Part shown: in pieces, positions 6,186 through 63,131 of the stretch
How positions within the stretch are numbered: position 1 is the stretch's first letter
How the letters are laid out: every line of letters begins with the position of its first letter
Source: Sphaerisporangium album
Lineage (GTDB): Bacteria; Actinomycetota; Actinomycetes; Streptosporangiales; Streptosporangiaceae
DNA length: 64,000 nucleotides
Assembly (NCBI RefSeq): GCF_003323745.1
Contig: NZ_QOIL01000034.1
Coordinates: 1 to 64,000 of the forward strand
Direction: 5' to 3'
Notes under the pieces: generated by a model
Seen by the model: only the letters and a program-made list of their open reading frames with translations
Told to the model about the DNA's origin: nothing
Database searches by the model: none
Translations under genes and position numbers: made by a program

Positions 6186-7813
6186 AAGAGGCTGCTCTGA
6201 TCCGCTGCGTCGTCGTATCTCCGTTTGGCCTGGAAGTACGGCAAGAGGGTCGCTGGCATCGATGGGCGCTTGCCCGCGATCAGCTCTTCCACGGTGATGA
6301 TCTGAACCACGGGATACTTCACGCCGTTGACGGGATACGTGTAGACCCCAGAGTGGTTAGCAGCATCGATCATCGCCTTCGTGGGCTTCTGCATACAGAC
6401 GAAGACGCCCATAGCGGCCCGCTGAGACTGAATGGTCCCGACCAGGTCTCGGACGTGTCCCGGATTCGTTGCCCCGCCCTTAACGGAGACAAGGATCTTC
6501 TCAGAGTTTCCCTTGGCGTCGATCGGGAACCGAATCACGCCGTCAACACCCTTGTCGCCTGCTTGCTTCTCGTTCGGCTGTCCGTCCAGCATCATGACGC
6601 ACCAGCGCTCGAACTCGAATGGGGAGCGCTTGAAAAGCGACTGGGCACCGCCGAGATCGCGCGGGATCCCGAGTAGCTCGTAGCTATCCCGGATGCCTTC
6701 GCCGTAGGTGTGTCGCAGGCGAGCGTCGATCAGGTCGACTGCCAGGGTCGTGACGTCGATTCCGACCCACTTCCGCCCTAGGTTCTGGGCGGCGTCCACG
6801 GTGGTTCCGCAGCCACAGAAAGGGTCGAGGACAACGTCTCCCGCATTACTGCTTGCCGTGAGAATTCGCTCCAGCAGGGCGCGAGGCTTCTGCGTCGGAT
6901 AACCAAGTCTCTCTTTGTCGGCGGACGTAAGCCGGATGTCGGTCCAGACGTCTTGCAGCGCCACGCCCGGTTGCTCGTCTAGGTAGCGCTTGTAGACGGG
7001 CATGCCGGTACTACGGAACTCAATCCGCCCTTCGGCGAGCATTTGATCAAGCTTTTCGCGCGAGTACGCCCAATAGCGCCCCTTGTAGGGAAGGACTCCG
7101 TGCCATTCAAAGCTTACATCGCCTCCCGATTTGCCCGCCGTAAGATCACCGCGTCGGTATCGGCGCCCAGTCACCGGCTCTACGTGCGTGTAGTTCTTAG
7201 CTATTGACGCCTCGTCGAAGGGCGTATATTGAGTGTTCCACGTGAATGTGCGACTCTTGCTGTAGAAGTAAATGACATCGTGGCTGCGGCCATAGCGGTG
7301 CGGATCATTCTTCGCACCGGCGCGTTGCCAGCTTATTTCGTTCTGGAAGTTTTCGGCGCCAAAGATGGTGTCGAGTATGATCTTGAGGTAATGACCGGCT
7401 GTCGGGTCGCAATGCAGGTAGATGGAACCTGTGGGCTTGAGGACGCGGTATAGCTCGATCAACCGCGCGGTCATCATCACAAGGTAGGCCAAGACGTCAT
7501 TATCGCCAAGTAGCTTACGCATTGCCTCCAGCGCGTCTTTGACCTTGTTCGACGCCGAACCGTTCATCATCTCGATATACAACGACTCGGTCTCGTGGCT
7601 CCACGTCCACGTGTCGCCGAAGGCTTCAATCTGGGCGTGCGCCTCGTCGCCGCTCTTCTCTTTGAAGAGAACGTTGTATGAGCGATTGGAATTGAAAGGC
7701 GGATCGAGGTAGATCAGGTCTACGCTCTCGGAGGGTAGGTGCTCACGCAGAACTTCCAGGTTGTCGCCGTAGTAGAGCTTGTTCAACCATTCACCGCGCT
7801 TCTTCTTCGCCAT
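6182..7813 (-). CDS. N6-adenine/N4-cytosine DNA methyltransferase fused to an Mrr-like nuclease domain
   Basis: 543 aa. Motif IV (DLIYLDPPF, residues 33-40) precedes motif I (VVLDPFCGCGTT, near 330), the order of beta-class amino-methyltransferases that use S-adenosylmethionine. After the methylase part, about residues 395-480 read as a PD-(D/E)xK fold: FEFERW, GDKGVDG and VSVKGG, like Mrr-type endonucleases. The product may therefore both cut and protect DNA, as single-chain restriction-modification enzymes do. No separate endonuclease or specificity gene is adjacent. Base composition is clearly less G+C-rich than its neighbours, and the gene is convergent to the early operon: signs of recent acquisition. 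Methylation alone remains possible. Confidence 0.85.
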   Translation of the reverse strand: MAKKKRGEWLNKLYYGDNLEVLREHLPSESVDLIYLDPPFNSNRSYNVLFKEKSGDEAHAQIEAFGDTWTWSHETESLYIEMMNGSASNKVKDALEAMRKLLGDNDVLAYLVMMTARLIELYRVLKPTGSIYLHCDPTAGHYLKIILDTIFGAENFQNEISWQRAGAKNDPHRYGRSHDVIYFYSKSRTFTWNTQYTPFDEASIAKNYTHVEPVTGRRYRRGDLTAGKSGGDVSFEWHGVLPYKGRYWAYSREKLDQMLAEGRIEFRSTGMPVYKRYLDEQPGVALQDVWTDIRLTSADKERLGYPTQKPRALLERILTASSNAGDVVLDPFCGCGTTVDAAQNLGRKWVGIDVTTLAVDLIDARLRHTYGEGIRDSYELLGIPRDLGGAQSLFKRSPFEFERWCVMMLDGQPNEKQAGDKGVDGVIRFPIDAKGNSEKILVSVKGGATNPGHVRDLVGTIQSQRAAMGVFVCMQKPTKAMIDAANHSGVYTYPVNGVKYPVVQIITVEELIAGKRPSMPATLLPYFQAKRRYDDAADQSSLF

Positions 7814-12363: not shown

Positions 12364-13620
12364 ATGACCGTCACCGACGTCAACGCCGCATTCGCCGCCG
12401 AGAAGACCGCCCAGCTCGCCGCCCAGCGCGCCGAACGCGACCGCCGCATCCAGGCCCAGGCCGACAAGGCCGCGTGGATCGACCGCGAGGTCGCCGAGGG
12501 CCGCATGACCCCGATCGGCGGCGACCGCTACCGCGTCACCCAAGGCATCGACGCCGGAGAAGTCTTCACCGTCCGCCGTAACCTCGCCGGTCAGATCGCC
12601 AAGGTCGTCGGCGAGCACGGCCTGGACCTCGCCGCCGACGGCACCGCGGCCCTCTACTCCGCCGTCCCGGCCTGGCACGGCCTCGGCCAGGTCATCCCCG
12701 GCGGCACCGACAGCATCGACGAGGTCCTCGCCCTGGGCCGCATCGACTGGGAGGTGACCAAGCGCGAGGTCCGCTACAGCTTCATGGGCGACGGCGAGAG
12801 CACCCCGACGCTGCGCACCATGCCCGACCGGTACGTCACCGTCCGCGAGGACACCGGGACCGCGCTCGGCGTGGTCGGCGCCCGCTACGAGGTGATCCCC
12901 AACCGCAAGATCTTCGAGTTCCTGGAGGACCTCGTAGGCCAGCACGGCGTCATCTGGGAGACTGCGGGCGCACTGCGCGGCGGCCGCCGCGTGTTCGTCT
13001 CCATGCGCGTCCCGGAGACCGTCACCGTCGACCCTGGCGGCCTGAACGAGGAGATCCTCCTGTTCCTCGCCGCCATGAACAGCCACGACGCCAGCAGCGA
13101 GGCCGAGACCGTCCTGTCGCCGTGGCGGCCACTGTGCAAGAACACCGAGCGCTTCGCCCTGCGCGACGCGGTGGCCCGCTGGGGCATCCGCCACACCTCC
13201 GGCGCGCTGGACCGCCTGGAGGAGGCACGCCGCAGCCTCGGCCTGACCCTCAAGTACGCCGACGCCTTCGCCGCCGAGGAGACCGCCCTGGCCCGCGCGC
13301 AGATCGCGATGGACGACATGCGCAACCTGATCGACGAGCTGTGGCCGGTGCCGCAGGACGCCCCGACGCGCACCCGCAACACCGCCGACCGCCGCCGCAC
13401 CGCCCTCATGGGCATGTTCGAGACCGAGGCCGAACGCCTGGGCCGCACCGCCTACGCCGCCGAGCGCGTCATCACCGACTACCTCGACCACCTCGCGCCC
13501 CGCCGCCCCGGCAAGACGATGACCGAGGAGATCGCCCGCGCGACCGCGTTGCTGGAGGGCACCGACGACGGCCTCAAGAACAAGGCCCACCGGCACCTCA
13601 TGACGCTGACCCGCCACTGA
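12364..13620 (+). CDS. DUF932 phage/plasmid-like protein
   Basis: 418 aa, ATG 12364 after GGGGGAG. WHGLGQVIPGGTDSIDEVL near residue 100 and the following VTKREVRY..., DRYVTVREDTGTALGVVG, and RVFVSMRVPETV are hallmarks of the DUF932 (TIGR03299) family found in phages, plasmids and ICEs. The first 45 residues form a charged helix. Its molecular role is unknown; some relatives sit near replication or ssDNA functions. It follows the 105-aa gene in one operon and ends at a strong hairpin. Confidence 0.85.
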   Translation: MTVTDVNAAFAAEKTAQLAAQRAERDRRIQAQADKAAWIDREVAEGRMTPIGGDRYRVTQGIDAGEVFTVRRNLAGQIAKVVGEHGLDLAADGTAALYSAVPAWHGLGQVIPGGTDSIDEVLALGRIDWEVTKREVRYSFMGDGESTPTLRTMPDRYVTVREDTGTALGVVGARYEVIPNRKIFEFLEDLVGQHGVIWETAGALRGGRRVFVSMRVPETVTVDPGGLNEEILLFLAAMNSHDASSEAETVLSPWRPLCKNTERFALRDAVARWGIRHTSGALDRLEEARRSLGLTLKYADAFAAEETALARAQIAMDDMRNLIDELWPVPQDAPTRTRNTADRRRTALMGMFETEAERLGRTAYAAERVITDYLDHLAPRRPGKTMTEEIARATALLEGTDDGLKNKAHRHLMTLTRH

Positions 13621-15442: not shown

Positions 15443-16921
15443 TCAGGCGGTGGTCAGGGTGCTCAGCGTCTCGCGATAGTGGTCGTAGGAGGCCGCGCCT
15501 CGGTGACCGGGGCGGGAGGTGTCGAGCAGTTCGTGTGCCCGCGACAGCACCAGGGGCGTCCGGTAGCCCTCGGGCATGGCCAGGAGATGCTGGCCTGCGA
15601 GCTGGTAGCCGCTGGCGGGGTCGCCGGAGCGGATGAGGCATGAGGCCTCGTCGAGCCGGATCAGGGCGGGGTTGACGTGCTCGGTGGGCGGGTAGAGGGC
15701 GAGGGCTTCCCGCTGGGCCTGGCGTGCTTCCTTCACCCGCCCGATCGCGGTCAGGGTGGCCTCGAGGTGGAAGGCCATCTGCTGCCGGGGGTAGCCGAAG
15801 ATCGAGTTTTCCAGGTGCGCGTCAGGGAGCTTCTCGGTGATGGCCTGTGCCTGCCGCAGCGCCTCCAGGCCGCGGGCCGCATCGCCGAGGCGGGCGTAGG
15901 CGCGGGCCTCGGTGGCGGCCGCCAGCGCGGCGCCGGCGCAGGGTGCCTGCCCGGCCCACTGCCGTGCCTCGCCTGCCAGAGCGATCGCGGTCTGGGGCGG
16001 CTGGTGGTGGTAGAGGCTCACGGTCGCCTCCCGCGCGCGTACCCATGCCTTCAGGAACCGGTCGCCGGTCTCGTCGGCCGCGATCTGTGCTGTTGAGAAC
16101 CAGCGGCGGGCGTGCCGGTGGTGGCCGAGGTCGGCCAGGATGTTGCCCGCCATGCCGGCGAGCTGGGCGCTGAGCCGGCACAGCCGCGTCTGGTGGTCGA
16201 CGGGCTGGCGGCTGGCGGCGTGCTGGTGGAGCTCGGCGAAGTCCAGCAGCACGTCTTCCAGAAGTTGGCGGGGCGGCCGGGATTTGAAGCCGTAGGCGTA
16301 GCCGTGGACCGTCTCCTCCCAGCGGTCCAAGGTCGCGGCGCTGATCGAGGATGAGGCGAGAAGGGCGTCCATGCGGCCGCGGATTTGGTCCAGCTCGTCC
16401 AGGACCAGGAACGGCAGGGTGCCGCCGGCAGTAAGAATGCTGCGCAGCATTTCACGTCGTTTCACGGCTGCCTCACCGTCGTCACCGTTTGTCCCTATCG
16501 AAACACGGCGGGCCGGTGTTTGGCGACCACCGGCCGGAGGCGGAGATGATTTCGTCCCGGGCAGGGAGTAGTCCTTGGCCCAGCCCATCTGCACCGGCCC
16601 GGTCCGGTAGAGGCGGCACAGCAGGTCACCGTACTGCCGGCCTGGCTGCAGGCCGTTCTCGAAGTGCGACAACTGCTCGCGGGTCATCCCGCAGGGCAGT
16701 GCCTGCGTCCGGCACAGCCTGTGCAGGGCATCGACGGCCTCTTGCACCTTCCACCCTCGGGCCAGGCGGTGGGCCTTAACAGGGAGCACCGCGCAGCAGT
16801 CGACTATCTCGGCGACGAGGGCGACAAGGTGGGCGCTCCCCTCCGCCAGAGAGCATCCGTCGTCGAGGTACCGCTGACGAAGCTCTTTCGCGCAAGTGAA
16901 CTGATGACCTCGTGGGCGCAT
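15443..16921 (-). CDS. Streptomyces-type HTH/TPR transcriptional regulator of the cargo operon
   Basis: 492 aa, ATG 16921. Residues 45-115 (LPVKAHRLARGWKVQEAVDA ... LPCGMTREQLSHFENGLQPG) form the XRE-like DNA-binding domain common in actinomycete regulators (KAHRLARGW). About residues 150-490 are all-helical repeats (EARQWAGQAPC, ARAYARLGDAARGLEALRQA, AREEALALYP-like), i.e. TPR modules that usually sense a peptide or small ligand. It is divergent from the operon at 17162 and shares a 240-bp control region, so it is the probable regulator. Third positions are G/C-rich like the operon, so both probably moved together. Confidence 0.75.
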   Translation of the reverse strand: MRPRGHQFTCAKELRQRYLDDGCSLAEGSAHLVALVAEIVDCCAVLPVKAHRLARGWKVQEAVDALHRLCRTQALPCGMTREQLSHFENGLQPGRQYGDLLCRLYRTGPVQMGWAKDYSLPGTKSSPPPAGGRQTPARRVSIGTNGDDGEAAVKRREMLRSILTAGGTLPFLVLDELDQIRGRMDALLASSSISAATLDRWEETVHGYAYGFKSRPPRQLLEDVLLDFAELHQHAASRQPVDHQTRLCRLSAQLAGMAGNILADLGHHRHARRWFSTAQIAADETGDRFLKAWVRAREATVSLYHHQPPQTAIALAGEARQWAGQAPCAGAALAAATEARAYARLGDAARGLEALRQAQAITEKLPDAHLENSIFGYPRQQMAFHLEATLTAIGRVKEARQAQREALALYPPTEHVNPALIRLDEASCLIRSGDPASGYQLAGQHLLAMPEGYRTPLVLSRAHELLDTSRPGHRGAASYDHYRETLSTLTTA

Positions 16922-17161: not shown

Positions 17162-18178
17162 ATGGATCAGGTCCAGTCCTGTGCGCGTTGCCCCAACACC
17201 ACCCGCAACCCGACGGTGCGGATCCTGCCCAGCGGCCTGTGCGCCATCTGCCATTGGTGGGCTGAGTCGCCTCACGCTTCCATCCGCCGGCGGGAGCTGC
17301 AGCACGTGCGCGCGCTGGCCGGCGGCGGCCGGGGCGAGGTCGACGCGCTGGTCGGCCTGTCCGGCGGGAAGGACTCGACCGCCACCCTGGTGCGGGTCCT
17401 GAAGATGGGCTTCACTCCGGTGGCGATCACGTTCGACACCGGTTACTACCCTGCGCACATCACCCAGCGCGCCGCCCGGGTCGCCGCCCAGCTGGGGGTG
17501 CGCCACGAGGTGGTCGACCTGCGGCCGCATATCCAGCCCGAGGACCGTGCGAGCTACGTGCTCACCGCGGAGCTGTACGACCGCGAGGAGACCCCGCTGC
17601 TCGCCGAGCGGTTCCGGGAGTTGTACCTGCTGGGCCGCGAACGCTACTCGGTGAAGCAGCGCGAACCGATGGCCTACGTGCGAACCTGCCAGCTGTGCCG
17701 TCGCCTGGTCGTTCCGGCCTACCACCGTGAGGCGGCCCGCCACGGCGCGCGGGTGTTCTTCCTCGGCACCAACGAGTGGGTCGGCCTGTCGCAGAACCCG
17801 GGCAACGGCCGGTACACCTTCTCCGCGGTGCGCCGGCTGCAACCGCCTGGCGCGCACGAGCCGGTGCTGGTGGTGCATCTGCCGTTCCTGCTCGGCGCCG
17901 GCCTGGAGGACACGGTCAGCGTGCTGCGGGAGGTCGGGTGGGAGCCGCCCGCCGGCGAGCGGGTGGTGGAGTCCAGCGCGAACTCCTGTCTGCTGGGCCG
18001 GGTGGCCGAGGCCAAGGCGGCGCGGCTTCTGGGGTTCCATCCCGACACTGTTCGCCTGGCCCGGGAGGTCACCTGCGGGTTTCTGCCGCGGGAGGAGGCC
18101 GAGCGGGCGCTGGCGGCCCCGCACGAGGCGACCGGCTCGGTGCGCCAGGTCCTCACCGGCGCGGGGATCCTGTCATGA
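17162..18178 (+). CDS. PP-loop ATP pyrophosphatase with N-terminal zinc site
   Basis: 338 aa, ATG 17162 after GGAGG. The PP-loop GLSGGKDSTA (residues 65-74) binds ATP and normally adenylates a carbonyl or nucleobase for amidation or thiolation. Ahead of it, CARCPNTTRNP ... GLCAICHWW is a four-Cys knuckle as in N-acetyl-sugar amidotransferases and some tRNA thiolases. Later Cys residues (RTCQLCRRL, SSANSCLLG, REVTCGF) could hold an Fe-S cluster. It is the first gene of the operon and overlaps the next by 4 bp. The substrate is unknown; no QueD/QueE partners are seen, so queuosine-type chemistry is not supported. Confidence 0.8.
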   Translation: MDQVQSCARCPNTTRNPTVRILPSGLCAICHWWAESPHASIRRRELQHVRALAGGGRGEVDALVGLSGGKDSTATLVRVLKMGFTPVAITFDTGYYPAHITQRAARVAAQLGVRHEVVDLRPHIQPEDRASYVLTAELYDREETPLLAERFRELYLLGRERYSVKQREPMAYVRTCQLCRRLVVPAYHREAARHGARVFFLGTNEWVGLSQNPGNGRYTFSAVRRLQPPGAHEPVLVVHLPFLLGAGLEDTVSVLREVGWEPPAGERVVESSANSCLLGRVAEAKAARLLGFHPDTVRLAREVTCGFLPREEAERALAAPHEATGSVRQVLTGAGILS

Positions 18179-19554
18179 CTGCGGCGACGATGGCCCAGAC
18201 GATGCCGGTCCTGGACGGCCATGCCCGCCGCTGCGCCGGCACCCTGGCAGGGGTCGAGGTCCTGTTCATCGGGCACGGCATCTGCGACGCCGCCGTGACC
18301 GCCCACGCGTTGGCCGCGGCCGGCGCCCGCCTGGTCAGCGTGGTGATCCCCTACGGGCCGGCCAAGCCGGAGGTGGTTGACGCCTACCAGCGGCTCGGCC
18401 CGGTGATCGCCCCGCCCGCGCCGCACCCGCTGCGGTTCGCCCAGGTGATGCGGGCGGCGGTCACCGAGGCCATCCACCTGGTCGCCACGCAAGCCCGCAC
18501 CGCCGATGCCCGGTGGATGATCGTCGAGGACGGCGGATACGCGGTGCCGCTGCTGCACGATACCCCTGAGCTGCGGCCCTACCTGCCCAGCTGCCTGGGC
18601 GCGGTGGAGCACACCAGCCGCGGCGCCTGGAACTACCAGTACGCCGAGGTCGACGGGCCGGTTCCCGGCACCCCGCGCACGCTGGAGCTTCCGGCGGTGA
18701 CCATCTCCGGGTGCGCGCTCAAGACCTGCCACGAGGGGGCGTTCGTCGCCGAGACCACCGTGGACGAGATCCTGCTCGCGCTCCGCGAGGATCACGTGTT
18801 CGTCCGGCACCTTCCGGTGGCCGTCGCCGGGTACGGCCGCATCGGCGCGGCCATCGCCGCCGAGCTCGCGGCGCGCGGCTGCCAGGTCGCCGTGATCGAC
18901 CCGCGCCGGCCCCAGCTCGCTGACGGCATGACGCTGGTGGACTGGCGTCAGGTGGCCGAGCGCGGCACGGTGCTGCTGGTGGGCGCCACCGGGACGGCCG
19001 CGACCCCGCCGGAACTGGTCAGCGCGTTCCTCGCCAGAGGGCGGCGGCGCATGTATCTGGCGAGCGCCTCCTCCAAGGCGGTGGAGTTCTCCCACCTCAT
19101 CGCAGCGCTGGAATCCCCATCGGTGATCGAGGCCCTCGCCCCGGCGCCGGGGATTCGGCTCACCCGATCGCCGGGCCCCGCCGGGCGCCGCTACCAGTTC
19201 ACGGCTCCGGCATGGCCGCAGGCGCGGGAGCTGGTCATGCTGGCCGACGGGTACCCGGTCCTGTTCCATCGGGCCGCCAGCCACGGGGCGACCAACGCGG
19301 CGATGGACCCGGTGATGACCCTGCTGTTCCTGGCGGCGGCCGGGCTGCCCGCCGCCGCGCACCGGCTGGGCCACCGGCTGCACACGGTCGCCGACGTAGC
19401 CGACCTGCCCGACCTGCCGGCCCCGTGGCGGGCACTGATCGAGCAGGAAGGGCTGCTGCGTACCTGGTGCGTTCTCCACGGTATCGACGCCGGCGACTAC
19501 CTGGCCCGGATCGGATTGCGCGCCCCGGAGGAGGTCGCGGCATGGCGTGGGTGA
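18175..19554 (+). CDS. S-adenosylhomocysteine-hydrolase-like NAD-dependent enzyme
   Basis: 459 aa, ATG 18175. The first half has MIVEDGGYAVPLLHD and GAVEHTSRGAWNY, matching the DDGGDLxxLLH and GxxExTTxG positions of SAH hydrolase. The middle is a Rossmann domain (VAVAGYGRIGAAIA, near residue 216) with the family-like pattern GTVLLVGATG. The C-terminal ADGYPVLFHRAASH occupies the place of LAEGRLxNLxxGHP. So it is a divergent relative, with several canonical residues changed. It may act on another adenosine thioether or nucleoside by the same 3'-oxidation chemistry; this is inference. It overlaps both neighbours. Confidence 0.7.
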   Translation: MTAATMAQTMPVLDGHARRCAGTLAGVEVLFIGHGICDAAVTAHALAAAGARLVSVVIPYGPAKPEVVDAYQRLGPVIAPPAPHPLRFAQVMRAAVTEAIHLVATQARTADARWMIVEDGGYAVPLLHDTPELRPYLPSCLGAVEHTSRGAWNYQYAEVDGPVPGTPRTLELPAVTISGCALKTCHEGAFVAETTVDEILLALREDHVFVRHLPVAVAGYGRIGAAIAAELAARGCQVAVIDPRRPQLADGMTLVDWRQVAERGTVLLVGATGTAATPPELVSAFLARGRRRMYLASASSKAVEFSHLIAALESPSVIEALAPAPGIRLTRSPGPAGRRYQFTAPAWPQARELVMLADGYPVLFHRAASHGATNAAMDPVMTLLFLAAAGLPAAAHRLGHRLHTVADVADLPDLPAPWRALIEQEGLLRTWCVLHGIDAGDYLARIGLRAPEEVAAWRG

Positions 19555-20159
19555 TCTGGGTGACCGGGCCGGCCGCGTGCGGCAAGTCCACCCTCACCAG
19601 GACCGTCGTGGAGCTATTGACGCACGAACGGCCGGAGGCCGCCGTGACGGTGCTGAGCGACGAGCAGCTGCTGCTGGAGGCCGTGGCGGCCGACCTCGGT
19701 CACACCCACCACCGGCACCCGTTCGGCGATTGGCGGTTCGTCGCCGACGGGTACCTGTTCGACGAGGGGGTCCGGCGGATCAGCGACCGCCTCGCCGACC
19801 TGGTCGCCGCCGACCCCGACGCGGTCGCCGTGGTCGAGCTCGCGCGGGGCGGCCACGCCGACGGCGTGGACGTCACCTACCGCCACGCCCTGGACCTCAT
19901 CGATCCCCGCCTGTGGCAGCACTCCACCGTGGTGGCCCTGGCCGTGCCGTGGCCGGAGCGGTGCCGGCGCAACCTCGCCCGGATCCGCACCAGCGGCCAC
20001 GGCACCGCCGCCGAGGTCATGGAGGCGCTGTACCGGGGCGCCGACCCGGGCGAGTGGCGCAGGGCCGGGATCACGGCGCACGTCCTGGATGGACGCACTC
20101 ACCCGCGCGAGCTCGCGCGCCAGATCCTCACCCGGGCGCGGCTGCCCGCTACGCGGTGA
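19542..20159 (+). CDS. P-loop kinase, nucleoside/nucleotide-kinase type (205 aa)
   Basis: ATG 19542, 13 bp inside the end of the preceding gene. The Walker A motif is TGPAACGKST (residues 8-17). DGYLFDEGVRRI and VVELARGGHAD occupy the acceptor/Walker B region, and RRNLARIRTSGHGT looks like a lid with arginines. Length fits small-molecule kinases acting on nucleosides or sugars. The acceptor is not predictable. It ends inside the convergent TSCPD gene (11-bp overlap). Confidence 0.75.
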   Translation: MAWVIWVTGPAACGKSTLTRTVVELLTHERPEAAVTVLSDEQLLLEAVAADLGHTHHRHPFGDWRFVADGYLFDEGVRRISDRLADLVAADPDAVAVVELARGGHADGVDVTYRHALDLIDPRLWQHSTVVALAVPWPERCRRNLARIRTSGHGTAAEVMEALYRGADPGEWRRAGITAHVLDGRTHPRELARQILTRARLPATR

Positions 20160-20604
20160 CCAGGGCGCTGCTGCGCGGCTGGGGCACGCCGGCACCGGAG
20201 CTCTGCTGGTCGGCCTGCGCGGTCCGCTCCTCGGCGGTCAGCACGCCCAGCTCGGCGCGGTCGGCGCGTGGCAGGTAGTCCAGGGCCAGGCGGCGGCCGA
20301 TGTAGTCGGTGATCGAGGCCGCGATGCGGATATCGGGGTCGTCGGTCAGGCCGCGCGGCTCGTAGGCCACGCCCACCAGGTCGTTGACGATCTTCACGAG
20401 AGGAACACCGTGATCGAGCGCCACATTGATCATGTTGTAGAGGGCATCGGTGAGTCCGCGCAGCGTGGACCCGTGCTTGCCCAGGTGCACCACCACTCGC
20501 CCCAGCGAGCCGTCCGCGTTGGCGGAGGTGATCAGGTGGCCTTGCGCGCCACCGATGCTGAAACGCCGGGTGTGGCCGTTCGGCCGGGCAGTGCGAGAGG
20601 TCAT
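20149..20604 (-). CDS. stand-alone TSCPD-domain protein resembling the C-terminus of class II ribonucleotide reductase
   Basis: 151 aa, start ATG 20604 with GGGAGC upstream. RVVVHLGKHGSTLRGLTDAL, YEPRGLTDDPDIRIAASI and DYIGRRLALDYLP match the C-terminal region of B12-dependent NrdJ, where the TSCPD domain sits. The catalytic barrel is absent, and the Cys motif near the NrdJ C-terminus is also missing. It lies antisense inside the operon. It might serve as a regulatory or subunit partner of a reductase, or bind nucleotides for the cargo pathway. The domain call is firm; the role is open. Confidence 0.75.
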   Translation of the reverse strand: MTSRTARPNGHTRRFSIGGAQGHLITSANADGSLGRVVVHLGKHGSTLRGLTDALYNMINVALDHGVPLVKIVNDLVGVAYEPRGLTDDPDIRIAASITDYIGRRLALDYLPRADRAELGVLTAEERTAQADQQSSGAGVPQPRSSALVTA

Positions 20605-20705
20605 ATCGGCTCCCTGTGGGCGGAGGTCGGATGGGCACGCCGCATCATGCCGCACCCGCGGCGCGCCGGCACGGATTCCCGCAGACGCGCCGTAAGGAGC
20701 GTGAG

Positions 20706-21443
20706 GTGCTCCTAGCTCAGCAATCGGCTCGCCAGGGGCCTGTGGCCGTGAGCGTGCTCGGGCCGCCGGCGGCCGGCAAGTCCAGCCTCACCGCCACCCT
20801 GGCGTCCCGCCATAGGGGCCTGATCTTCCGGCTGCGCGAGTATGCCCGCCACCGGGCGGCGCACGACGAGGGCCTGGCCCAGACGATGCGAACCAGCACC
20901 GACCCCCTGGGGTGGGTGCCCGATCCCGTGGCCCTGAGCCTGATCGATCATGCTCTTCACGGTCCCTTCCGCCCATCACCCGGCATCTTGCTGCTGCTGG
21001 AGGGCTTTCCCGGTAACCCCGTCCAGGCCGTCCATACCGCCGGGGTGCTGGACCGGATGGGCGTGGAGCTGCATGTCGTGGAGCTCCTGGTGGACCAGGA
21101 GAGCGCCCGGCGGCGCGCACAGACACGGCGGGTCTGCCCGGCCTGCGAGAGCGGCTCGGCCGACGAACCGCACCGGCCCGCCACGGCCGGGCCCGACGGC
21201 GGGTGCGCCCGCTGCGGCGGGCCGCTGCGAGCGCGCCGCGACGACACCGCCGACCTGCTGGCGGCCCGCACCGGCCGCTTCCGCCAGCACCACCCGCGCA
21301 TCCGCCGCGAGTTCCAGACGCGCGGTGTGCCCTGGCACACCATCGACACCCGGTGCTCACCCGCGGCCGTCGTGGCGGCGGCTGAGGCCGCCCTCGGCAT
21401 CTGTCCGTCCCTGCACCCCGACCCCGGAGCGCTGATCCCATGA
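20706..21443 (+). CDS. adenylate-kinase-like protein with zinc lid (245 aa)
   Basis: GTG 20706 behind AAGGAG. The landmarks are SVLGPPAAGKSS (P-loop, residues 15-26), RLREYARHRA, LLLEGFPGNPVQA (adenylate kinase has LDGFPRTxxQA) and a Cys4 lid: RVCPACES ... GCARCGGPL followed by RARRDDT. So it keeps the nucleoside-monophosphate kinase plan, but the R of GFPR is replaced, which could change substrate or activity. With the other kinase and the NUDIX enzyme it points to a nucleotide-like intermediate. It overlaps the radical SAM gene by 4 bp. Confidence 0.8.
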   Translation: MLLAQQSARQGPVAVSVLGPPAAGKSSLTATLASRHRGLIFRLREYARHRAAHDEGLAQTMRTSTDPLGWVPDPVALSLIDHALHGPFRPSPGILLLLEGFPGNPVQAVHTAGVLDRMGVELHVVELLVDQESARRRAQTRRVCPACESGSADEPHRPATAGPDGGCARCGGPLRARRDDTADLLAARTGRFRQHHPRIRREFQTRGVPWHTIDTRCSPAAVVAAAEAALGICPSLHPDPGALIP

Positions 21444-22576
21444 CCGTCGACCTGCCCATGCCGGCCCGGGGCCGCGCAGATGCCTACGGGCACGCCCGCA
21501 TGCCCGCGCCCGGCAACTCCGCAGACTTCCTGCGCATCGACCGCGTGCCCTACGGCCGGTTCCGCAACGTCTACCTGTACATCACCGAGGCGTGCCAGCT
21601 GCGATGCGGCTCCTGCTACATGGGCGACCGGCTGGAGCGAGCGCTGAAGATGCCTTTCGAGCAGATCCGCGCCACGCTCATCGCCTGGCGGCAGATGGGA
21701 GGCTCCAAGCTGACCATCCTGGGTGGCGAGCCGACGCTGCACCCTCGCTACGAGGACACCATCCGCCTGGCCGGGCAGATCGGCTACGAGCAGGTCATCA
21801 CCACCAGCAACGGCCTGGCCCCCGCGCGCCGCAAGTTCGCGCGGATGGAGCCCGGTGACTTCGCGTACGTGCAGATCAGCTTGGACGGCGGCTCGCCGGC
21901 CACGCACGACGTCGTCCGCGGCCCGGGCTCCTTCGCCACCACCTTGGAGACCGTCGAGGAGTTGGCGCAGCGGGGGTTCGACACTCGGATCATCTGCACC
22001 GTCAACAAGGCCAACGTCGGCGACTGCCTGAACCTGCTGGACATCGCCGACCGCCTGGGGGTGTCGCTGGTCAAGTTCCATGTTTTCTCGGTGATCGGCC
22101 GTGGCCACGGCAACGACGACTGGGGCATGCGCCCGCATGAGTGGCTGGAGTTCTGCGACGCGCTGCCCGCCGCCTCGGCCGGCCGCCGCACTCGCGTCTG
22201 GTACCAGCCGACATTCGCACGCCGGCAGGAGATGCCTCGATACCAGGCCGAGGGGTACAGCGGGTGTATCGGCCGGACCCTGGACCGCATCAGCATCTTC
22301 CCCGACGGGCGCGCCTACGTGTGCTCGTTCCTATTCGACACAGATCTGCACTTCGCCACCGTCACCTCCGAAGGCCGCATCGAGTTGAACCGGGGCCCCA
22401 ACGAGTTCGATCTGTTCACCGGCGCGCTCGTCCAGCACGGCTGCGGGAGTTGCAAGGCCCCCGGCTCCTGCATGGGCGGCTGCCCCGCTGAGCAGATCGT
22501 CGATGGCGCTTCCTCCTGCGCCGAAGAGGAGATCTTCCCGGTGTGCCGGCTGTGGAAGTCCGTCCCGGCCAACTGA
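21440..22576 (+). CDS. radical SAM enzyme with SPASM-type C-terminal cluster site
   Basis: 378 aa, ATG 21440. CQLRCGSC at residues 52-59 is the CX3CX2C site for the catalytic [4Fe-4S] cluster; GGEPTLHPRY and VQISLDGGSPATHD follow in the usual order. The C-terminus has GCIGR...DGRAYVC, CGSCKAPGSCMGGC and two later Cys, a SPASM-like set for auxiliary clusters. SPASM enzymes modify peptides or small molecules by radical chemistry. No precursor-peptide gene is seen nearby, so a small-molecule or nucleotide substrate is more likely. It is the central enzyme of the operon. Confidence 0.9.
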   Translation: MTVDLPMPARGRADAYGHARMPAPGNSADFLRIDRVPYGRFRNVYLYITEACQLRCGSCYMGDRLERALKMPFEQIRATLIAWRQMGGSKLTILGGEPTLHPRYEDTIRLAGQIGYEQVITTSNGLAPARRKFARMEPGDFAYVQISLDGGSPATHDVVRGPGSFATTLETVEELAQRGFDTRIICTVNKANVGDCLNLLDIADRLGVSLVKFHVFSVIGRGHGNDDWGMRPHEWLEFCDALPAASAGRRTRVWYQPTFARRQEMPRYQAEGYSGCIGRTLDRISIFPDGRAYVCSFLFDTDLHFATVTSEGRIELNRGPNEFDLFTGALVQHGCGSCKAPGSCMGGCPAEQIVDGASSCAEEEIFPVCRLWKSVPAN

Positions 22577-22671
22577 CCGATCCGCCCGCCGCCCGTCGAC
22601 CGGCTCCGGCATCCTTGCCCTCCTGCGGCGACGCCCGCCGCAGCCAGCGCAAACACGATAAGAGGCACATC

Positions 22672-23109
22672 ATGGCCAAAGAGCGTTACAAGACCTGCGT
22701 CGACGTCCACCTCATCCTTCGCCGAGGCGACGAGATCCTGCTCGGCGAGCGGCGGAACACCGGCTGGCGCGACGGCGACTGGCACCTGCCGTCCGGGCAC
22801 CTGGACCCGGGCGAAGCGGCGAGCGCCGCGCTGATCCGCGAGACCGCCGAAGAGATCGGCGTGGCCGTCGATGCGGCCGCGGTGCGCTTCGCGCACCTGA
22901 TGCACCACTTCACCGACGACGCTCGCACCGCCATGTTCTTCGAGGTCACGCAGTGGACCGGCGAGGTCGTCAACCGCGAGCCGGACAAGTGCGCCGGATG
23001 GGACTGGTTCCCGCTCGACGCCCTGCCCGAGCAGATGATTCCCTACGCCGCCGAGGCCCTCACCCTCTACGCCAAGGGCACTGTCTACTCCGAGCGCGGC
23101 TGGAGCTGA
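22672..23109 (+). CDS. NUDIX hydrolase (145 aa)
   Basis: ATG 22672. The NUDIX box is complete: GHLDPGEAASAALIRETAEE plus IGV, with G, E, REXXEE in register. HLILRRGDEILLGERRN before it is the usual first strand pair. NUDIX enzymes cleave nucleoside diphosphates linked to another group, giving a phosphate and a nucleotide. Here it may trim an activated intermediate made by the kinases. It is separated from the radical SAM gene by 95 bp and from the next gene by one base. Confidence 0.9.
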   Translation: MAKERYKTCVDVHLILRRGDEILLGERRNTGWRDGDWHLPSGHLDPGEAASAALIRETAEEIGVAVDAAAVRFAHLMHHFTDDARTAMFFEVTQWTGEVVNREPDKCAGWDWFPLDALPEQMIPYAAEALTLYAKGTVYSERGWS

Positions 23110-23110
23110 C

Positions 23111-24019
23111 ATGGACGGCGCTGTGGACCTCGCCTGCTTCAGCTACCTCGCCGGCGCCCGCCTGCTGGCCGTCGACCGCTACCCCGCCGCCGATACCGGC
23201 GCCGAGGTCCACAGCGTCACCCACTCCCTTGCCGGAGACGGCCCGATCACCGCGATCACCGCCCGAGGCCTCGGGCTGCGCACCGCGTTGGCGGCTAACC
23301 ACGTCGGCAGCGACGTCACCGGATCGGCACTGCTGTCCCGCCTGGACGGCGCCGGCGTTCAGCATCAGCTGTCCCTGCAGGCCGCCACCATGACCGCCGA
23401 GCTCACGATCATCACCGACCGCACCGGCACCCGCACCTGGTTCGCCTACCTCGCCCCCGCCTACGCGGGCCTGGCCGACGTCGATCTGTCCGCGCTGACC
23501 ACCGCCCGGCTCACCTACATCGACTGCTACGCGGTTCTCACTGCGGCGGCCACCCGCGCCATCACCGCGACCGCCCGCGCGGGCGTCCCGCTGATGCTCA
23601 ACCTCGGCGGCGACCCGCTACACCCCGACATCGCACAGGCCGCCGCCGGATCCCGTCCCATCGTGCAGACCAGCCTCCCTGAAAACCAGGCGCACCACGC
23701 CGGCGACCTGGCCGACGACCTCGCCCGGCGCCTGGCCCCGGACGTGGTGCTGGTCACCCTGGGTAGCCTCGGCGCGATCGCCCATCAGGTCGGCGCACGC
23801 CACCGCGCCCCCGCCGGGGACGGCCCGATCATCCACACCCACGGCGCCGGGGCCGCGTTCTCCGCCGGGTTCGCCGCCGCCCACCTCAACGGCCACGACA
23901 CCTCCACCGCGCTGCGCCAGGCCTGCCTCATCGGCACGGCGCACTGCGGCCCACCGGGCAGCCACCCCGGCCGCTCCGGAACCCCGCCCTCACCGACAGG
24001 AGTACCGGCATGTCCGTAA
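23111..24019 (+). CDS. PfkB/ribokinase-family protein lacking the catalytic aspartate
   Basis: 302 aa, ATG 23111. The fold is readable: GLRTALAANHVGSDVTGSAL, MTAELTIITDRTGTRTW, and an anion-hole region HTHGAGAAFSAGF (residues 242-254). In active PfkB kinases this reads DTTGAGDxF; here the catalytic Asp is Ala 248 and the first Asp is His. Unless another residue substitutes, phosphotransfer should be lost or changed. It overlaps the cupin gene by 10 bp. It might bind sugar or nucleoside as an allosteric subunit. Family call is firm; activity doubtful. Confidence 0.75.
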   Translation: MDGAVDLACFSYLAGARLLAVDRYPAADTGAEVHSVTHSLAGDGPITAITARGLGLRTALAANHVGSDVTGSALLSRLDGAGVQHQLSLQAATMTAELTIITDRTGTRTWFAYLAPAYAGLADVDLSALTTARLTYIDCYAVLTAAATRAITATARAGVPLMLNLGGDPLHPDIAQAAAGSRPIVQTSLPENQAHHAGDLADDLARRLAPDVVLVTLGSLGAIAHQVGARHRAPAGDGPIIHTHGAGAAFSAGFAAAHLNGHDTSTALRQACLIGTAHCGPPGSHPGRSGTPPSPTGVPACP

Positions 24020-24666
24020 TCGACCCCCACCTGCCCGCCCTGCGCGCCCTCGACTGGGACGACACCTCACAGGTCCAGCTCACCACCGCCGGGCTGCTCG
24101 CCGACCTCGCGCAGGACCGCGCCGCGCTGCGCGCCGCCGTCGAGGCGATCCGCGGCGACGCACACCTGCAGGGGCTGTGCGAGCACTACGACATCCTCGA
24201 CAAGCTCGTCCTGCACGACGACCGGGAATCCGGGTTCCGGCTCCGGCTGCACCTGTTCGGCCCGGACCACTACGACCGGCCGCACAACCACCGATGGACC
24301 TACTCCGCCCGTCTCCTCACGGGCAGCTACACCCACACCCTTTACGGGACCGAGGAAGGGTTCAACGAGTCGATCGACGTCAGGAAGCTGCACGCCAAGA
24401 TGGTGCGCACAGAGAAGGCCGGTGACAGCTACACGCTGCACCACACGATGGTCCATGCCGCGGTCGCCGAGCCCGACACGGTGTCCCTCATCGCCCGCGG
24501 CCCCGCCGTCAAGGACCGGTTCCTGGTCACCGACCGAGCCACAGGCCAGGTGTGGTGGCAGTACGGCGCAGCGCAGGAATCCCCCGAGCAGGCAGCCGCG
24601 AAGCGCATGACCCTAGACCAGTTCGACGAATGCCTGCGCACGCTCCATAAGCTGCACCTCCTCTGA
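24010..24666 (+). CDS. cupin-like metalloenzyme, last gene of the cargo operon (218 aa)
   Basis: ATG 24010. After a helical N-terminal 70 residues, FRLRLHLFGPDHYDRPHNHR followed by WTYSARLLTGSYTHTLYG is a cupin core with several His (HNH, then THT) able to hold a metal ion; HHTMVHAAVAEPDT is the second half-motif. Cysteine-dioxygenase-like proteins look like this. It may oxidise or isomerise the pathway product; unproven. It ends just before the interspersed hairpin repeat at 24720. Confidence 0.65.
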   Translation: MSVIDPHLPALRALDWDDTSQVQLTTAGLLADLAQDRAALRAAVEAIRGDAHLQGLCEHYDILDKLVLHDDRESGFRLRLHLFGPDHYDRPHNHRWTYSARLLTGSYTHTLYGTEEGFNESIDVRKLHAKMVRTEKAGDSYTLHHTMVHAAVAEPDTVSLIARGPAVKDRFLVTDRATGQVWWQYGAAQESPEQAAAKRMTLDQFDECLRTLHKLHLL

Positions 24667-27113: not shown

Positions 27114-27689
27114 ATGTCCGAGGTGCGAGGTGGGGACGGCCGTTACCACCGCGACCCCAGGACGGCCAAACGCGACGCCGAGGCATGCCGTCTACGCGCA
27201 CGCGGCTACACCTACGAACAGATCGCCGTCGAGCTCAAGATGTCCGGCAAGGGCCGCGCGTACGACGCCGTGCAGCGCGCCCTGGCCGACACGGTCAGGG
27301 AGCCGGCCGAGGAGGTTCGCCAGCTCGAAGTCCTCCGCTTAGACGAGCTGTACCGCGCCGCCCTGGCGGTGATGGAGAACACGCATTACGTGGTGTCACA
27401 CGGCAAGATCGTGCGCCTCGGCGAGCCGTACATCGACGACGACGGCGAAGCCGCCGTGGATGACGACCAGGGCGCGCCCTTGGTCGACGACGCCCCGGTG
27501 CTCGCGGCGATCGACCGCATGCTGCGGATCCAGGAACGGCGGGCCCGTCTGCTGGGCTTGGACTCCCCGCAGCGGGTCAGCATCGACGCGCAGAACCTCG
27601 GCGACGACATCCGCGGCCTGATCTCCGCTCTCACCGGCGAGGACGACGATGACGACGCCGACGAAGAGGAGCCCGACGAGACCGGCTGA
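27114..27689 (+). CDS. terS: terminase small subunit-like protein
   Basis: 191 aa, ATG 27114. The N-terminus (RTAKRDAEACRLRARGYTYE followed by QIAVELKM) is a helix-turn-helix that would recognise the packaging site. The middle is a helical oligomerisation part and the tail is very acidic (EDDDDDADEEEPDE). Position directly before the large terminase and overlap with it support the call. Sequence alone would leave it as a DNA-binding phage protein. Confidence 0.7.
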   Translation: MSEVRGGDGRYHRDPRTAKRDAEACRLRARGYTYEQIAVELKMSGKGRAYDAVQRALADTVREPAEEVRQLEVLRLDELYRAALAVMENTHYVVSHGKIVRLGEPYIDDDGEAAVDDDQGAPLVDDAPVLAAIDRMLRIQERRARLLGLDSPQRVSIDAQNLGDDIRGLISALTGEDDDDDADEEEPDETG

Positions 27690-29199
27690 CCTGGAACGCA
27701 TCCAGGCCGGCATCGACGAGCTGGTGCGCGCCGGAGACACCCGGCGCCTGCGCGCGGCGCAGCGACTGCTCACCAGCGCGGTCGATCGCAAGCGGGTCGC
27801 CGAGCGGGCCCGCAAGTACGTCCGCGACCCGATCGCCTGGGTGATCCGGCGGCTCAAGCAGATCGTCTGGAGCAAGCAGCAGGAGATTCTGCTTGCGGTC
27901 CGCGACCACCGGCGGGTGGCGGTGCGCAGCGGGCACGGCGTCGGGAAGTCGCACACCGCCTCCCTGGTGGCGGCGTGGTGGTTGGACACCCACGAGCCCG
28001 GGACCGCGTTCGTCGTCACCACCGCCCCGACCTTCCCCCAGGTGCGGGCAATCCTCTGGCGGTACATCCGGCGGATCCACAAGGCGGCGCGACTGCCGGG
28101 CAAGGTCAACCAAGTCGAGTGGCTGATCGACGACGAGCTCGTCGCGTACGGCCGGAAGCCAGCCGACCACGACGAGTCCGCGTTTCAGGGCATCCACGCG
28201 GAATTCGTCTTAGTGATCATCGACGAAGCGTGCGGCATCCCCGAGCAGCTGTGGATCGCGGCCGACGCCCTGGCCACCGGGCCCGAGTGCCGCATCTTCG
28301 CGATCGGAAATCCGGACAACCCGGCGAGCCACTTCAAGCGGGTGTGCCTGCCGGGCTCGGGCTGGCATGTGATCGGCATCAGCGCGTTCGACAGCCCGAA
28401 TCTGACTGGGGAGGCCGTCCCGCCGAAGGTCGGCAAGGCCTTGGTGAGCCGCGAGTGGGTCGAAGAGAAACGGCGGGAATGGGGCGAGGACAACCCCCTT
28501 TATCGCTCGAAGGTGCTCGGAGAGTTCAGCGAGGACAGCCAGTGGCAGGTCGTGCGCACCTCCGACGTCGCCGCCTGCCGCATCGACCTGGACAAGCCGT
28601 ACGCGCCGGTGGAGCTGCTGCCGGTGGAGCTCGGCGTGGACGTCGGGGGCGGGCGAGACGAGACCGTGATCCGTGAGCGCCGCGGCCAGGTCGCCGGCCG
28701 CGAGTGGCGCGAGCACACCGACCGGCCCGAGGTCATCGCGCCGATGGTCCTGCAGGCCATCCGGGAGACCGGCGCCACCTCGGTCAAGATCGACTCCAAC
28801 GGGGTCGGGTTCGGCGTCGTCGGCGAACTGCGCAACATGGCCGCCCGCGGCCTGCATACCGCGCGGATCTCCGCCGTGAACGTCAGCGAGGCCCCGCGCG
28901 ACCCGGCCCGCTTCGCGAACCTGCGCGCCGAGATCTGGTGGTGCATCGGCCGCGAGCTGTCTGAGGCCCGCGAGTGGGACCTGTCCACCATGGACAACGC
29001 TGACGACACCGTGGCCCAGCTGCTGGAACCGCAATGGAGCCTGGACCCCAAGGGCCGGGTCCTGGTCGAGAAGAAGGACGACATCATCGAGCGCCTCGGC
29101 CGGTCACCCGACAACGCCGACGCGCTGCTGCTGGCGTTCTTCTGCCCGGCCGACGCTGTAACCGACTACATGGAGCACCTGCTCAGGAGGGGGTCGTGA
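27649..29199 (+). CDS. terL: terminase large subunit (packaging ATPase-nuclease)
   Basis: 516 aa. ATG 27649 overlaps the small subunit by 41 bp. Walker A is SGHGVGKSHT (near residue 94) and Walker B LVIIDEACG. AFQGIHAEF lies between them. The nuclease half has LGVDVGGGRDETVI and IDSNGVGFGV, then a late Asp (SPDNADALLLAF), the three acidic positions of the RNase-H-like nuclease. It drives DNA into the prohead and cuts it. The stop overlaps the portal start. Confidence 0.95.
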   Translation: MTTPTKRSPTRPADLERIQAGIDELVRAGDTRRLRAAQRLLTSAVDRKRVAERARKYVRDPIAWVIRRLKQIVWSKQQEILLAVRDHRRVAVRSGHGVGKSHTASLVAAWWLDTHEPGTAFVVTTAPTFPQVRAILWRYIRRIHKAARLPGKVNQVEWLIDDELVAYGRKPADHDESAFQGIHAEFVLVIIDEACGIPEQLWIAADALATGPECRIFAIGNPDNPASHFKRVCLPGSGWHVIGISAFDSPNLTGEAVPPKVGKALVSREWVEEKRREWGEDNPLYRSKVLGEFSEDSQWQVVRTSDVAACRIDLDKPYAPVELLPVELGVDVGGGRDETVIRERRGQVAGREWREHTDRPEVIAPMVLQAIRETGATSVKIDSNGVGFGVVGELRNMAARGLHTARISAVNVSEAPRDPARFANLRAEIWWCIGRELSEAREWDLSTMDNADDTVAQLLEPQWSLDPKGRVLVEKKDDIIERLGRSPDNADALLLAFFCPADAVTDYMEHLLRRGS

Positions 29200-31412
29200 T
29201 GGCCTGGTGGCGCCGCCGTGTCCCCCCGGACGATGTGGAGAAGGCCGCCCCGCCTCCCCAGGCGCACATGGTGCCGCTGTCGGAGGTCGTCGCCGCGCTC
29301 ACCCAACGGCCCCCTGCGGAGGCCGCCGCCGTCACGCCGATGCCGCGACCCGAGGGGTGGTTCGCCGCGCCGTTCGGCCCGGGGACGCCCCTGATCCCTG
29401 AGGCGATAAACCGGCCGCGCACCGACACCGGCCGGCCCGAACCTCGGCTGTGGGACTACCCCGTCAGCTGGAACCTGCAACCCGGCGGGCAACGCCTGGT
29501 GCCATGGGCCATCCTGCGCAGCGCGGCGGACGCGCCGGTGATCCGGCAGTGCATCCAGGTTCGCAAACGGGGCATCATCGACCTCGGGTGGGACATCACC
29601 ATCAGCCAGGACGCCGTAGAGGCTGCGCAGGCCGAGGGCACCAGCCGAGCCGACGCCGACAGCAGGCTACGTGATCGCTTCGCGGGGGATGTCGCCCGGC
29701 TGGTGGAGTTCTGGAAGGAGCCTGACCGGGGCAACGGGCTCGGCTTCGCCGCCTGGCTAAGCGCGCTCTTGGAGGAGCACCTGGTGCTCGACGCCGTGGC
29801 GATCTACCCGCGCATGACCTACGGCGGAGAGTTGTTCTCCTACGAGTTGATCGACGGCTCGACCATCAAGCCGCTGCTCACCGAGCGCGGCGGCCGCCCG
29901 CTTCCTCCCCACCCGGCCTACCAGCAGATCGTCAAGGGCTTCCCCCGCGGAGAGTTCACCGCGGCCGTCGCCGACGACGGCACCGTGCAAGGTCTGGCGG
30001 CTGACCAGCTCGTCTACGAGCGGTACAACGTCCGCACCTGGACCCCGTACGGCTACAGCCCGGTCGAGCAGGCGCTGATCGACATGGACATCTACCTCAA
30101 GCGGCTGGCGTGGATGCGGGATGAGTACACCCCGGGCGTGCAGCGCGAATCGTTCATGGTCAACAGCGGGACCGTGCACTGGTCGCCGGATCAGCTGCGC
30201 GAGTACGAGCGCGCCTTCAACGACGATGTCTCCAGTAACCGGGCGCGGTGGAGGTTCCTGCCCCCGGGCCTTCAGCCGGACGACTCGGCCGACCAGGGCG
30301 AGAGGTACAAGCCCGACTACGACCTGCACCTGATCAAGCTGGTCGCCTCGCATTTCGGGGTTCCTCTGCCCGAGCTCGGGTTCTCCGAGGCCAAGGGGCT
30401 CGGCAGCTCGGGGTGGAGCGAGGGCCAGGAGGCCGTTCAGCACCGCCAGGGCGTGCTACCCACGGCCCGATGGCTGGAGGCGCTGCTCACGGGCATCTCC
30501 CGCCGCTTCCTCGGCATGCCGCGCGAGCTGGAGTTCCGTTTCCTCGGCCTGGAGGACCAGGATGAGGAAACGGCCGACAAGATCGTGGAAGCGCGGGTGA
30601 AGTCGGGCCGGCTCACCTACAACGAAGGCAGGGATCAACTGGGCCTGCCGCGGTACGCGATCCCCGAGGCCGACCGGCCCGCCATCGTCACCAGCTCGGG
30701 CCTGGTCTTCCTGGAAGGGGCGCTGGCCACGCAGGAGGCGCAGCGCGCGGCCGGGGGACACGACCAGACCGCCCGCCCTGGCGCCCCAGGTGAGGACCGG
30801 CCAGCGCAGGACCGGCCGCCAGCGAGCGATGCGGCCAAGGCCGAGCTGGCGACGTTCCGCCGCTGGGCCCGCAAGCACGTCGGCGCCGATCGGCGCTTCC
30901 AGTTCACCACCGAGCGCGACGTCGTGCTCACGCTCGCGCCCGACCTGGCCGACGACAACCGCGTCACCTGGAAGGCGGCGAGCCCGGCCCCAAAAGCCCG
31001 GTGGGCGGGCTGGGAGCATGACCAGGCCCTGGCCCGGCACTACGCCCCACTGATCGCCGACGCTCTCGCCGACGCGGTCGACGCCGAGCGGCTCGCCCGC
31101 GCCTGGCTCGCGGCGCGCGGCCAGAAGGCGGCCGACCCAGGGGACGCACGCTCCTGGCTGGACGCGCGCGGCATCTGGTCGCGCATCCGCGACGCCCTGG
31201 GGCGGGTGCTGCGCCGGCTGTGGCCCGAGGCATGGCACCTGGGCATCCGCGCGGCGCAGGCTGCGGCCACCAGCGCGCCCGTGGACTGGGTGCCTGGACG
31301 CCCGGCGACCACGAGGCGGCCGCGCGGTTGTACTCCGGGCACCGCGGACTGCAGGACCTGCTGGACCGGGACGGCATCGAGACGATCCGCAGCGTTGCGG
31401 CCACCCGGATGA
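29199..31412 (+). CDS. portal protein, C-terminus shifted out of frame
   Basis: 737 aa as read. ATG 29199 follows AGGAGGGGG. Residues 85-480 have the phage portal pattern: APVIRQCIQVRKRGIIDLGW, LDAVAIYPRMTYGGELFSYE, GYSPVEQALIDMDIYLKRLA and the clip/stem region GSSGWSEGQEAVQHRQGVL. From about base 31290 the reading frame gives an Arg/Pro-rich nonsense tail, while the -1 frame encodes the MuF domain. The native product is probably a portal-MuF fusion of about 855 residues. Confidence 0.9.
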   Translation: MAWWRRRVPPDDVEKAAPPPQAHMVPLSEVVAALTQRPPAEAAAVTPMPRPEGWFAAPFGPGTPLIPEAINRPRTDTGRPEPRLWDYPVSWNLQPGGQRLVPWAILRSAADAPVIRQCIQVRKRGIIDLGWDITISQDAVEAAQAEGTSRADADSRLRDRFAGDVARLVEFWKEPDRGNGLGFAAWLSALLEEHLVLDAVAIYPRMTYGGELFSYELIDGSTIKPLLTERGGRPLPPHPAYQQIVKGFPRGEFTAAVADDGTVQGLAADQLVYERYNVRTWTPYGYSPVEQALIDMDIYLKRLAWMRDEYTPGVQRESFMVNSGTVHWSPDQLREYERAFNDDVSSNRARWRFLPPGLQPDDSADQGERYKPDYDLHLIKLVASHFGVPLPELGFSEAKGLGSSGWSEGQEAVQHRQGVLPTARWLEALLTGISRRFLGMPRELEFRFLGLEDQDEETADKIVEARVKSGRLTYNEGRDQLGLPRYAIPEADRPAIVTSSGLVFLEGALATQEAQRAAGGHDQTARPGAPGEDRPAQDRPPASDAAKAELATFRRWARKHVGADRRFQFTTERDVVLTLAPDLADDNRVTWKAASPAPKARWAGWEHDQALARHYAPLIADALADAVDAERLARAWLAARGQKAADPGDARSWLDARGIWSRIRDALGRVLRRLWPEAWHLGIRAAQAAATSAPVDWVPGRPATTRRPRGCTPGTADCRTCWTGTASRRSAALRPPG

Positions 31413-63097: not shown

Positions 63098-63131
63098 CAT
63101 CCCTCCTTCGCATCGTCGATCACGGGTGTGC

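Follow-up and report, generated by a model that had tools for sequence, protein, structure and literature searches.

The present study analyzes a cluster of enzyme genes in the first 64,000 nucleotides of contig NZ_QOIL01000034.1 of the actinobacterium Sphaerisporangium album (assembly GCF_003323745.1; this whole stretch is called the window), where the cluster is carried by a prophage. A preliminary description had read positions 17162 to 24666 as eight genes forming a pathway to a modified nucleoside or nucleotide. A core of this set, made up of genes for a radical SAM/SPASM enzyme, an adenylate-kinase-like phosphotransferase, a NUDIX hydrolase, a cupin and, in part of the loci, a PfkB-fold protein, is co-inherited across genera and phyla. 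It is strongly suggested that the core makes a small molecule, because of its enzyme types and the swappable tailoring genes beside it, and a product of nucleotide or nucleoside type is plausible. On balance we favor the explanation that the prophage cargo is a mobile cluster for small-molecule biosynthesis, in which the radical core is fixed and the tailoring genes are exchangeable.

Loci were collected through an alignment of the radical SAM protein, which gave 44 named genomic loci and one IMG/VR provirus. Beside the radical SAM gene stood the adenylate-kinase-like gene in 42 of the 44 loci, the NUDIX gene also in 42, the cupin gene in 39 and the PfkB-like gene in 31. The preliminary description had set co-localization against a scatter of homologues, and with core partners adjacent in 31 to 42 of the 44 loci it is co-localization that was found; one co-inherited core pathway can thus be retained, while the nucleotide nature of its product is something we infer. 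Hosts of the core include Nocardia, Streptomyces, Herbidospora, Micromonosporaceae and two metagenome-assembled genomes (MAGs) of Chlamydiae, with radical SAM identities to the window copy of 79% in Herbidospora, about 66% in Nocardia and 56% in the Chlamydiae MAGs. Core gene order and strand often differ between loci, which speaks for function and not for a recent common origin. Occurrence of the core is rare: a profile of the cupin matched 2 of 396 sampled genomes of the phylum, the window's included, and the radical SAM protein was found in 5 of 299 family genomes.

Genes in front of the core vary between hosts. An XRE/TPR regulator gene usually neighbors the core; a related one adjoins it divergently in most Nocardia loci, and in Nocardia the core is joined by a gene for an APH-like kinase or an alpha/beta hydrolase. 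Nocardia copies other than that of the N. panacis prophage described below lie on conjugative or recombinase-bearing DNA. Two Herbidospora copies carry an S-adenosylhomocysteine (SAH) hydrolase-like gene, a small open reading frame, methyltransferase genes and a GNAT gene, and at the S. fragilis locus the SAH-hydrolase-like gene is accompanied by one of GNAT type and by what may be a homologue of the small Herbidospora frame. In one Herbidospora locus (L014, 16965–17498) a second, probably truncated cupin copy was seen 4 kilobases downstream of a complete core. The two Chlamydiae MAGs (L048, L049) combine cupin, radical SAM and NUDIX genes with APH-like, NDK-like and PGM-type genes, the last three named by eye, and these copies make a cross-phylum transfer worth tracing.

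All eight genes of the preliminary description were present between 17162 and 24666, with families mostly as it had assigned them, but a ninth, a minus-strand TSCPD gene inside the operon, had been overlooked. The NUDIX gene is likewise real, but alignment with relatives moves its start from 22543 to 22672. No other locus was found to have all eight genes together. The set and its regulator are as follows.

15443 to 16921, minus strand: NsdA-family XRE/TPR regulator (NF053720, E 2.2e-41, 142.8 bits, above the cut-off of 75)
17162 to 18178, plus strand: PP-loop ATPase with N-terminal Cys4, front block (SGGKDS at residue 67, CxxC...CxxC; PF06508, 6e-6)
18175 to 19554, plus strand: SAH-hydrolase-like NAD-binding enzyme, front block (ahcY model, 3.3e-9)
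19542 to 20159, plus strand: small P-loop kinase-like protein, front block (GPAACGKST; weak nucleoside or nucleotide kinase matches)
20149 to 20604, minus strand: stand-alone TSCPD-domain protein (PF12637, 1.9e-6, above cut-off; frame open to 20655, likely ATG at 20604)
20706 to 21443, plus strand: adenylate-kinase-like phosphotransferase with Cys4 LID, core (TIGR01351, 3.6e-18)
21440 to 22576, plus strand: radical SAM/SPASM enzyme, core (PF04055, 2.3e-20)
22672 to 23109, plus strand: NUDIX hydrolase, core (PF00293, 1.8e-19; intact NUDIX box)
23111 to 24019, plus strand: PfkB-fold protein without catalytic Asp, core, absent in some loci (PF00294, 7e-17)
24010 to 24666, plus strand: cupin with thiol-dioxygenase-type fold, core (AlphaFold2 model; Foldseek 4tlf)

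The TSCPD gene divides the set into a front block, in which the PP-loop and SAH-hydrolase-like genes overlap by 4 base pairs (bp) and the latter and the small kinase gene by 13 bp, and a block from the adenylate-kinase-like gene to the cupin gene, which has its own upstream gap of 101 bp. Within this second block there are overlaps of 4 bp (adenylate-kinase-like and radical SAM genes) and 10 bp (PfkB-like and cupin genes) and gaps of 95 and 1 bp. The regulator is divergent from the cluster, as had been described. No match was returned by Rfam and tRNA scans of the window, and no promoter match by a sigma-70 scan.

Catalytic motifs are kept in four of the core enzymes (radical SAM, adenylate-kinase-like, NUDIX and cupin), which we count in favor of a biosynthetic role. 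The radical SAM motif CxxxCxxC is present in 45/45 sequences and SPASM-type cysteines in 43/45, and the best match in the PDB is BlsE (5.8e-13), an enzyme acting on a nucleoside sugar, which also speaks for the biosynthetic reading. The adenylate-kinase-like protein resembles adenylate kinases of the PDB (2.7e-25), and its P-loop and Cys4 are found in 43/43 relatives, but it scores 66 bits against the TIGR01351 cut-off of 168. The Arg of the DGFPR motif, which contacts AMP in adenylate kinases, is Gly in 14/14 aligned sequences. In the PfkB-like protein the motif reads HTHGAGAAF, against DTxGAGDxF in active PfkB kinases, with Ala at the position of the GAGD Asp in the window copy and in all 25 rows in which the motif aligned; the protein does not classify as a PfkB kinase, and the label of kinase is doubtful because the catalytic Asp is lost. 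The AlphaFold2 model of the cupin (predicted local distance difference test, pLDDT, 91.1) has thiol dioxygenases as its best Foldseek matches (4tlf, 7.3e-8, template modelling scores 0.57/0.63). Its overall fold and putative His-rich metal motif resemble those of cysteine and 3-mercaptopropionate dioxygenases, but it is only 16–19% identical to bacterial thiol dioxygenases and has a conserved motif of its own, PHNHRW (40/40 sequences); H92 and H94 with the invariant H145 and H149 are candidate residues for a three-His metal site. The assertion that each family handles nucleotides was too strong, considering the lost Asp, the thiol-dioxygenase type of the cupin and the occurrence of cupin relatives in other types of cluster.

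Such relatives also belong to larger clusters that encode aminotransferases and formyltransferases, or neighbor genes of cyclitol type, which favors secondary metabolism over a purely defensive role. On two plasmids (L086, 4893–12254; L087, 6721–13264) a cupin relative of 42–47% identity accompanies aminotransferase, formyltransferase-family, endonuclease/exonuclease/phosphatase-family and aldo/keto reductase genes. At L088 (9977–12599) a NUDIX gene and a pair of cupin relatives (30%) are embedded in a large cluster that also encodes prenyl synthases, two radical SAM proteins and a protein of dehydroquinate-synthase type.

If the core does make a small molecule, the adenylate-kinase-like enzyme would phosphorylate an acceptor other than AMP, and the radical SAM enzyme would perform the key C–H abstraction on the compound so phosphorylated, which probably resembles a nucleotide or a sugar. 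The cupin may carry out an O2-dependent oxidation, possibly at sulphur, and the PfkB-fold protein may bind a nucleoside or sugar but transfer no phosphoryl group in the usual way, while diphosphate cleavage by the NUDIX protein would release or detoxify the product. For the genes particular to the window, the PP-loop ATPase could activate a substrate for nitrogen or sulphur transfer and the SAH-hydrolase-like enzyme could catalyze an NAD-dependent oxidation or elimination on a sugar, as AgmF does in angustmycin A biosynthesis. The product would presumably benefit the lysogen. The lost key residues of the adenylate-kinase-like and PfkB-like proteins give specific predictions on repurposed enzymes. 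Spanning phyla, carried by unrelated phages and without a described product, a conserved pathway of several enzymes such as this one offers a direct route to new chemistry.

As the preliminary description had supposed, no characterized pathway in the curated families or papers searched matches the set. Searching the literature for this set of genes, for the combination with Nocardia or prophages and for a defense system built of these families gave no described match, and none of the curated cut-offs for queuosine, viperin, BlsE, adenylate kinase or SAH hydrolase was reached. One of the nearest described parallels is the actinobacterial angustmycin A cluster, in which AgmF, an NAD-dependent dehydratase of SAH-hydrolase fold, tailors a nucleoside antibiotic (PMC8599513). 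Unlike that cluster, the window lacks genes for a LOG-type AMP phosphoribohydrolase, a ribose-phosphate pyrophosphokinase-type enzyme and a phosphoribosyltransferase, and the six Agm enzymes include no radical SAM, NUDIX or cupin protein; moreover, the essential Asp188 of AgmF is Glu at the likely equivalent position of the window protein. Equivalences assigned by eye suggest that this protein keeps the NAD site GYGRIG, H34, D119 and K183, with the last catalytic Asp replaced by Glu187. It scores 36 bits against the cut-off of 497.6 for the AhcY equivalog TIGR00936, and its structure model, built from 4 sequences, was too poor for a structure search (pLDDT 59.5).

The SAH-hydrolase-like protein has relatives in three other loci only (L013, L014, L017), and the small kinase has none in other core loci. 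No relative of the PP-loop ATPase was found at 1e-15 in the 299 family genomes, in the genome scan or in the phage collection, which also lacked cupin relatives and gave radical SAM matches of only about 20–29%; searches of plasmids with the PP-loop protein gave only weak N-terminal matches. The N-terminal Cys4 and SGGxDS motif are present in this ATPase, and its best NCBIfam match is the N-acetyl sugar amidotransferase WbuX, with 37.1 bits against a cut-off of 203. The TSCPD protein matches residues 751–879 of the NrdJ model PRK06556 (1.7e-34) and equals the C-terminal TSCPD domain of this vitamin B12-dependent ribonucleotide reductase, but it is small, stands alone and lacks the catalytic part; a full-size gene of NrdJ type elsewhere in the host is 51% identical over the TSCPD domain.

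Several points weigh against a mobile biosynthetic cluster. The core has no evident gene for transport or self-resistance, and substrate, product and direction of the steps are what we infer throughout. The likeness to BlsE, a cytosylglucuronate decarboxylase of blasticidin type, appears to be general radical SAM similarity (50 bits, cut-off 400), the loss of Asp in the PfkB-like protein weakens the argument from nucleotide or sugar kinases, and it is by overlap and strand that the PP-loop and small kinase genes would be assigned to the pathway. Some Nocardia copies stand beside known defense systems, which would also fit a defensive role.

The placement of the cluster between phage early and late genes was confirmed by matches to PHROG families on both sides. 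Terminase, portal and tail genes are contiguous with early genes, as expected of a prophage: 3′ of the set come terminase, portal and tape measure genes, and 5′ of it are genes for a DNA methyltransferase and a DUF932 protein. No integrase or attachment site was identified for this element. The flanking phage genes are these.

6182 to 7813, minus strand: phage-type DNA methyltransferase, early side (phrog_67, 7.3e-71)
12364 to 13620, plus strand: DUF932 phage gene, early side (phrog_1221, 2.7e-79; PF06067, 3.7e-56)
27649 to 29199, plus strand: terminase large subunit, late side (phrog_2, 4.9e-38)
29187 to 31412, plus strand: portal protein, late side (phrog_2662, 1e-59)

The same core is similarly placed in a second prophage, unrelated to that of the window, which is represented by a Nocardia panacis locus (L053) and an identical IMG/VR locus (L057). 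There, RusA, ParB-like, PAPS-reductase-like and HNH genes are followed by the regulator and core and then by terminase, portal, head and major head genes, so that the core lies directly 5′ of the packaging genes in both phages. The two captures look independent, because the radical SAM tree groups the N. panacis prophage copy with those of Nocardia but places the window copy beside Herbidospora and Streptomyces. A related terminase (54%) from another order (G338) belongs to an element that lacks the cluster; upstream of this terminase lies a weak homologue of DUF932. The IMG/VR provirus call on a contig identical to that of the window (IMGVR_UViG_2856626968_000005, L084) has the cupin start, 24010, as its first base, so that this call does not fix the left phage boundary; it likely reflects CheckV-style trimming of metabolic genes as host DNA. 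Such trimming of host-like genes has been described for actinobacterial prophages, and in the same survey, of 4,831 prophages, a Mn/Zn uptake gene was the sole exception to replication and virion functions among annotated genes (PMC9903846). Metabolic phage cargo of this kind may thus be systematically trimmed from viral catalogues, and its presence raises the question of why temperate phages carry biosynthesis.

An alternative explanation, unlikely but deserving of weight, is an antiviral or superinfection-exclusion system of viperin-like logic, in which the radical SAM enzyme would convert a kinase-prepared nucleotide into a toxic analogue able to halt the polymerases of phages, the NUDIX protein would limit self-damage and the XRE/TPR protein would control expression. 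This would account for a radical SAM enzyme, a nucleotide-kinase relative and a NUDIX protein in a compact unit without a transporter, for carriage by two prophages and for the sporadic, mobile distribution. Prokaryotic viperins, too, are radical SAM proteins of mobile, sparse sets, some with nucleotide kinases according to PADLOC model titles. However, the window protein scores 45.6 bits against the viperin cut-off of 180 (NF038283) and has SPASM cysteines, which indicates that it is not a viperin, and the core includes several extra enzymes. An association of the Nocardia copies with defense islands is suggestive: when 96 flank proteins from 14 Nocardia loci were compared at 1e-10 with 96 control proteins taken from randomly chosen parts of those contigs, 85 PADLOC models were matched among the flanks and 0 among the controls, and BREX (L056), type I restriction-modification (L042), MADS/specificity (L036) and Septu PtuA (L033) were individually confirmed. 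The models are redundant, though, and by locus the difference was 3/14 against 0/14, which is not significant. Relaxase, resolvase and integrase-core families were frequent in the same flanks, mobile islands accumulate defense genes whatever their cargo, and flanks of non-Nocardia copies gave only weak or generic matches. The variable methyltransferase and acetyltransferase genes also suit secondary metabolism better. That the core is an undescribed mobile antiviral system, producing a toxic nucleotide analogue by radical SAM chemistry in prophages, actinobacterial defense islands and Chlamydiae, therefore seems rather improbable.

Readings as a cluster for a ribosomally synthesized and post-translationally modified peptide or for a modified DNA base are disfavored. 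The former, in which the radical SAM/SPASM enzyme would modify a precursor peptide, is highly improbable: the best NCBIfam matches of the enzyme are to peptide maturases of SPASM type, among them ScmF and the mycofactocin maturase, but with scores far under their cut-offs (83 against 400; 82.5 against 265), no PqqD-type recognition protein was recognized, and inspection by eye of the window and the inspected loci, with no systematic search for short reading frames, revealed no precursor gene or conserved small frame among core genes that overlap or abut. A chance pile-up of unrelated prophage cargo, which would be consistent with the PP-loop, small kinase and TSCPD genes having no co-localized relatives, must be thought very doubtful indeed, as the core recurs with the same partners in varied order and strand across genera and in Chlamydiae; for the core it is refuted by this recurrence, but for the front block it may hold. 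Least credible of all is a role in supplying the phage with a modified base for its own DNA or RNA, since in spite of the position between early and late genes in two phages and a phage DNA methyltransferase and TSCPD gene nearby, most core copies are not shown to be in phages and, in agreement with the preliminary description, hallmarks of queuosine, archaeosine-type or other hypermodification were absent (QueC TIGR00364, 29.7 bits, cut-off 150.3; no QueD, QueE, FolE or transglycosylase).

A gene set distinct from the window core was seen on actinobacterial plasmids (L059, 8000–12615; L060, 7243–11692; L061, 7708–12147), comprising a nucleotidyltransferase gene, two tandem radical SAM genes (34–39% to that of the window) and an extra glutamate-tRNA ligase gene, with an FAD monooxygenase as well in two of the three. 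Farther along the window, a Schlafen/AlbA_2 domain protein (56962–58383) and a protein with an FtsK gamma domain encoded on the minus strand (60791–63100) suggest a second integrated element to the right of the phage; an integrase fragment was seen at L065, 7704–7985.

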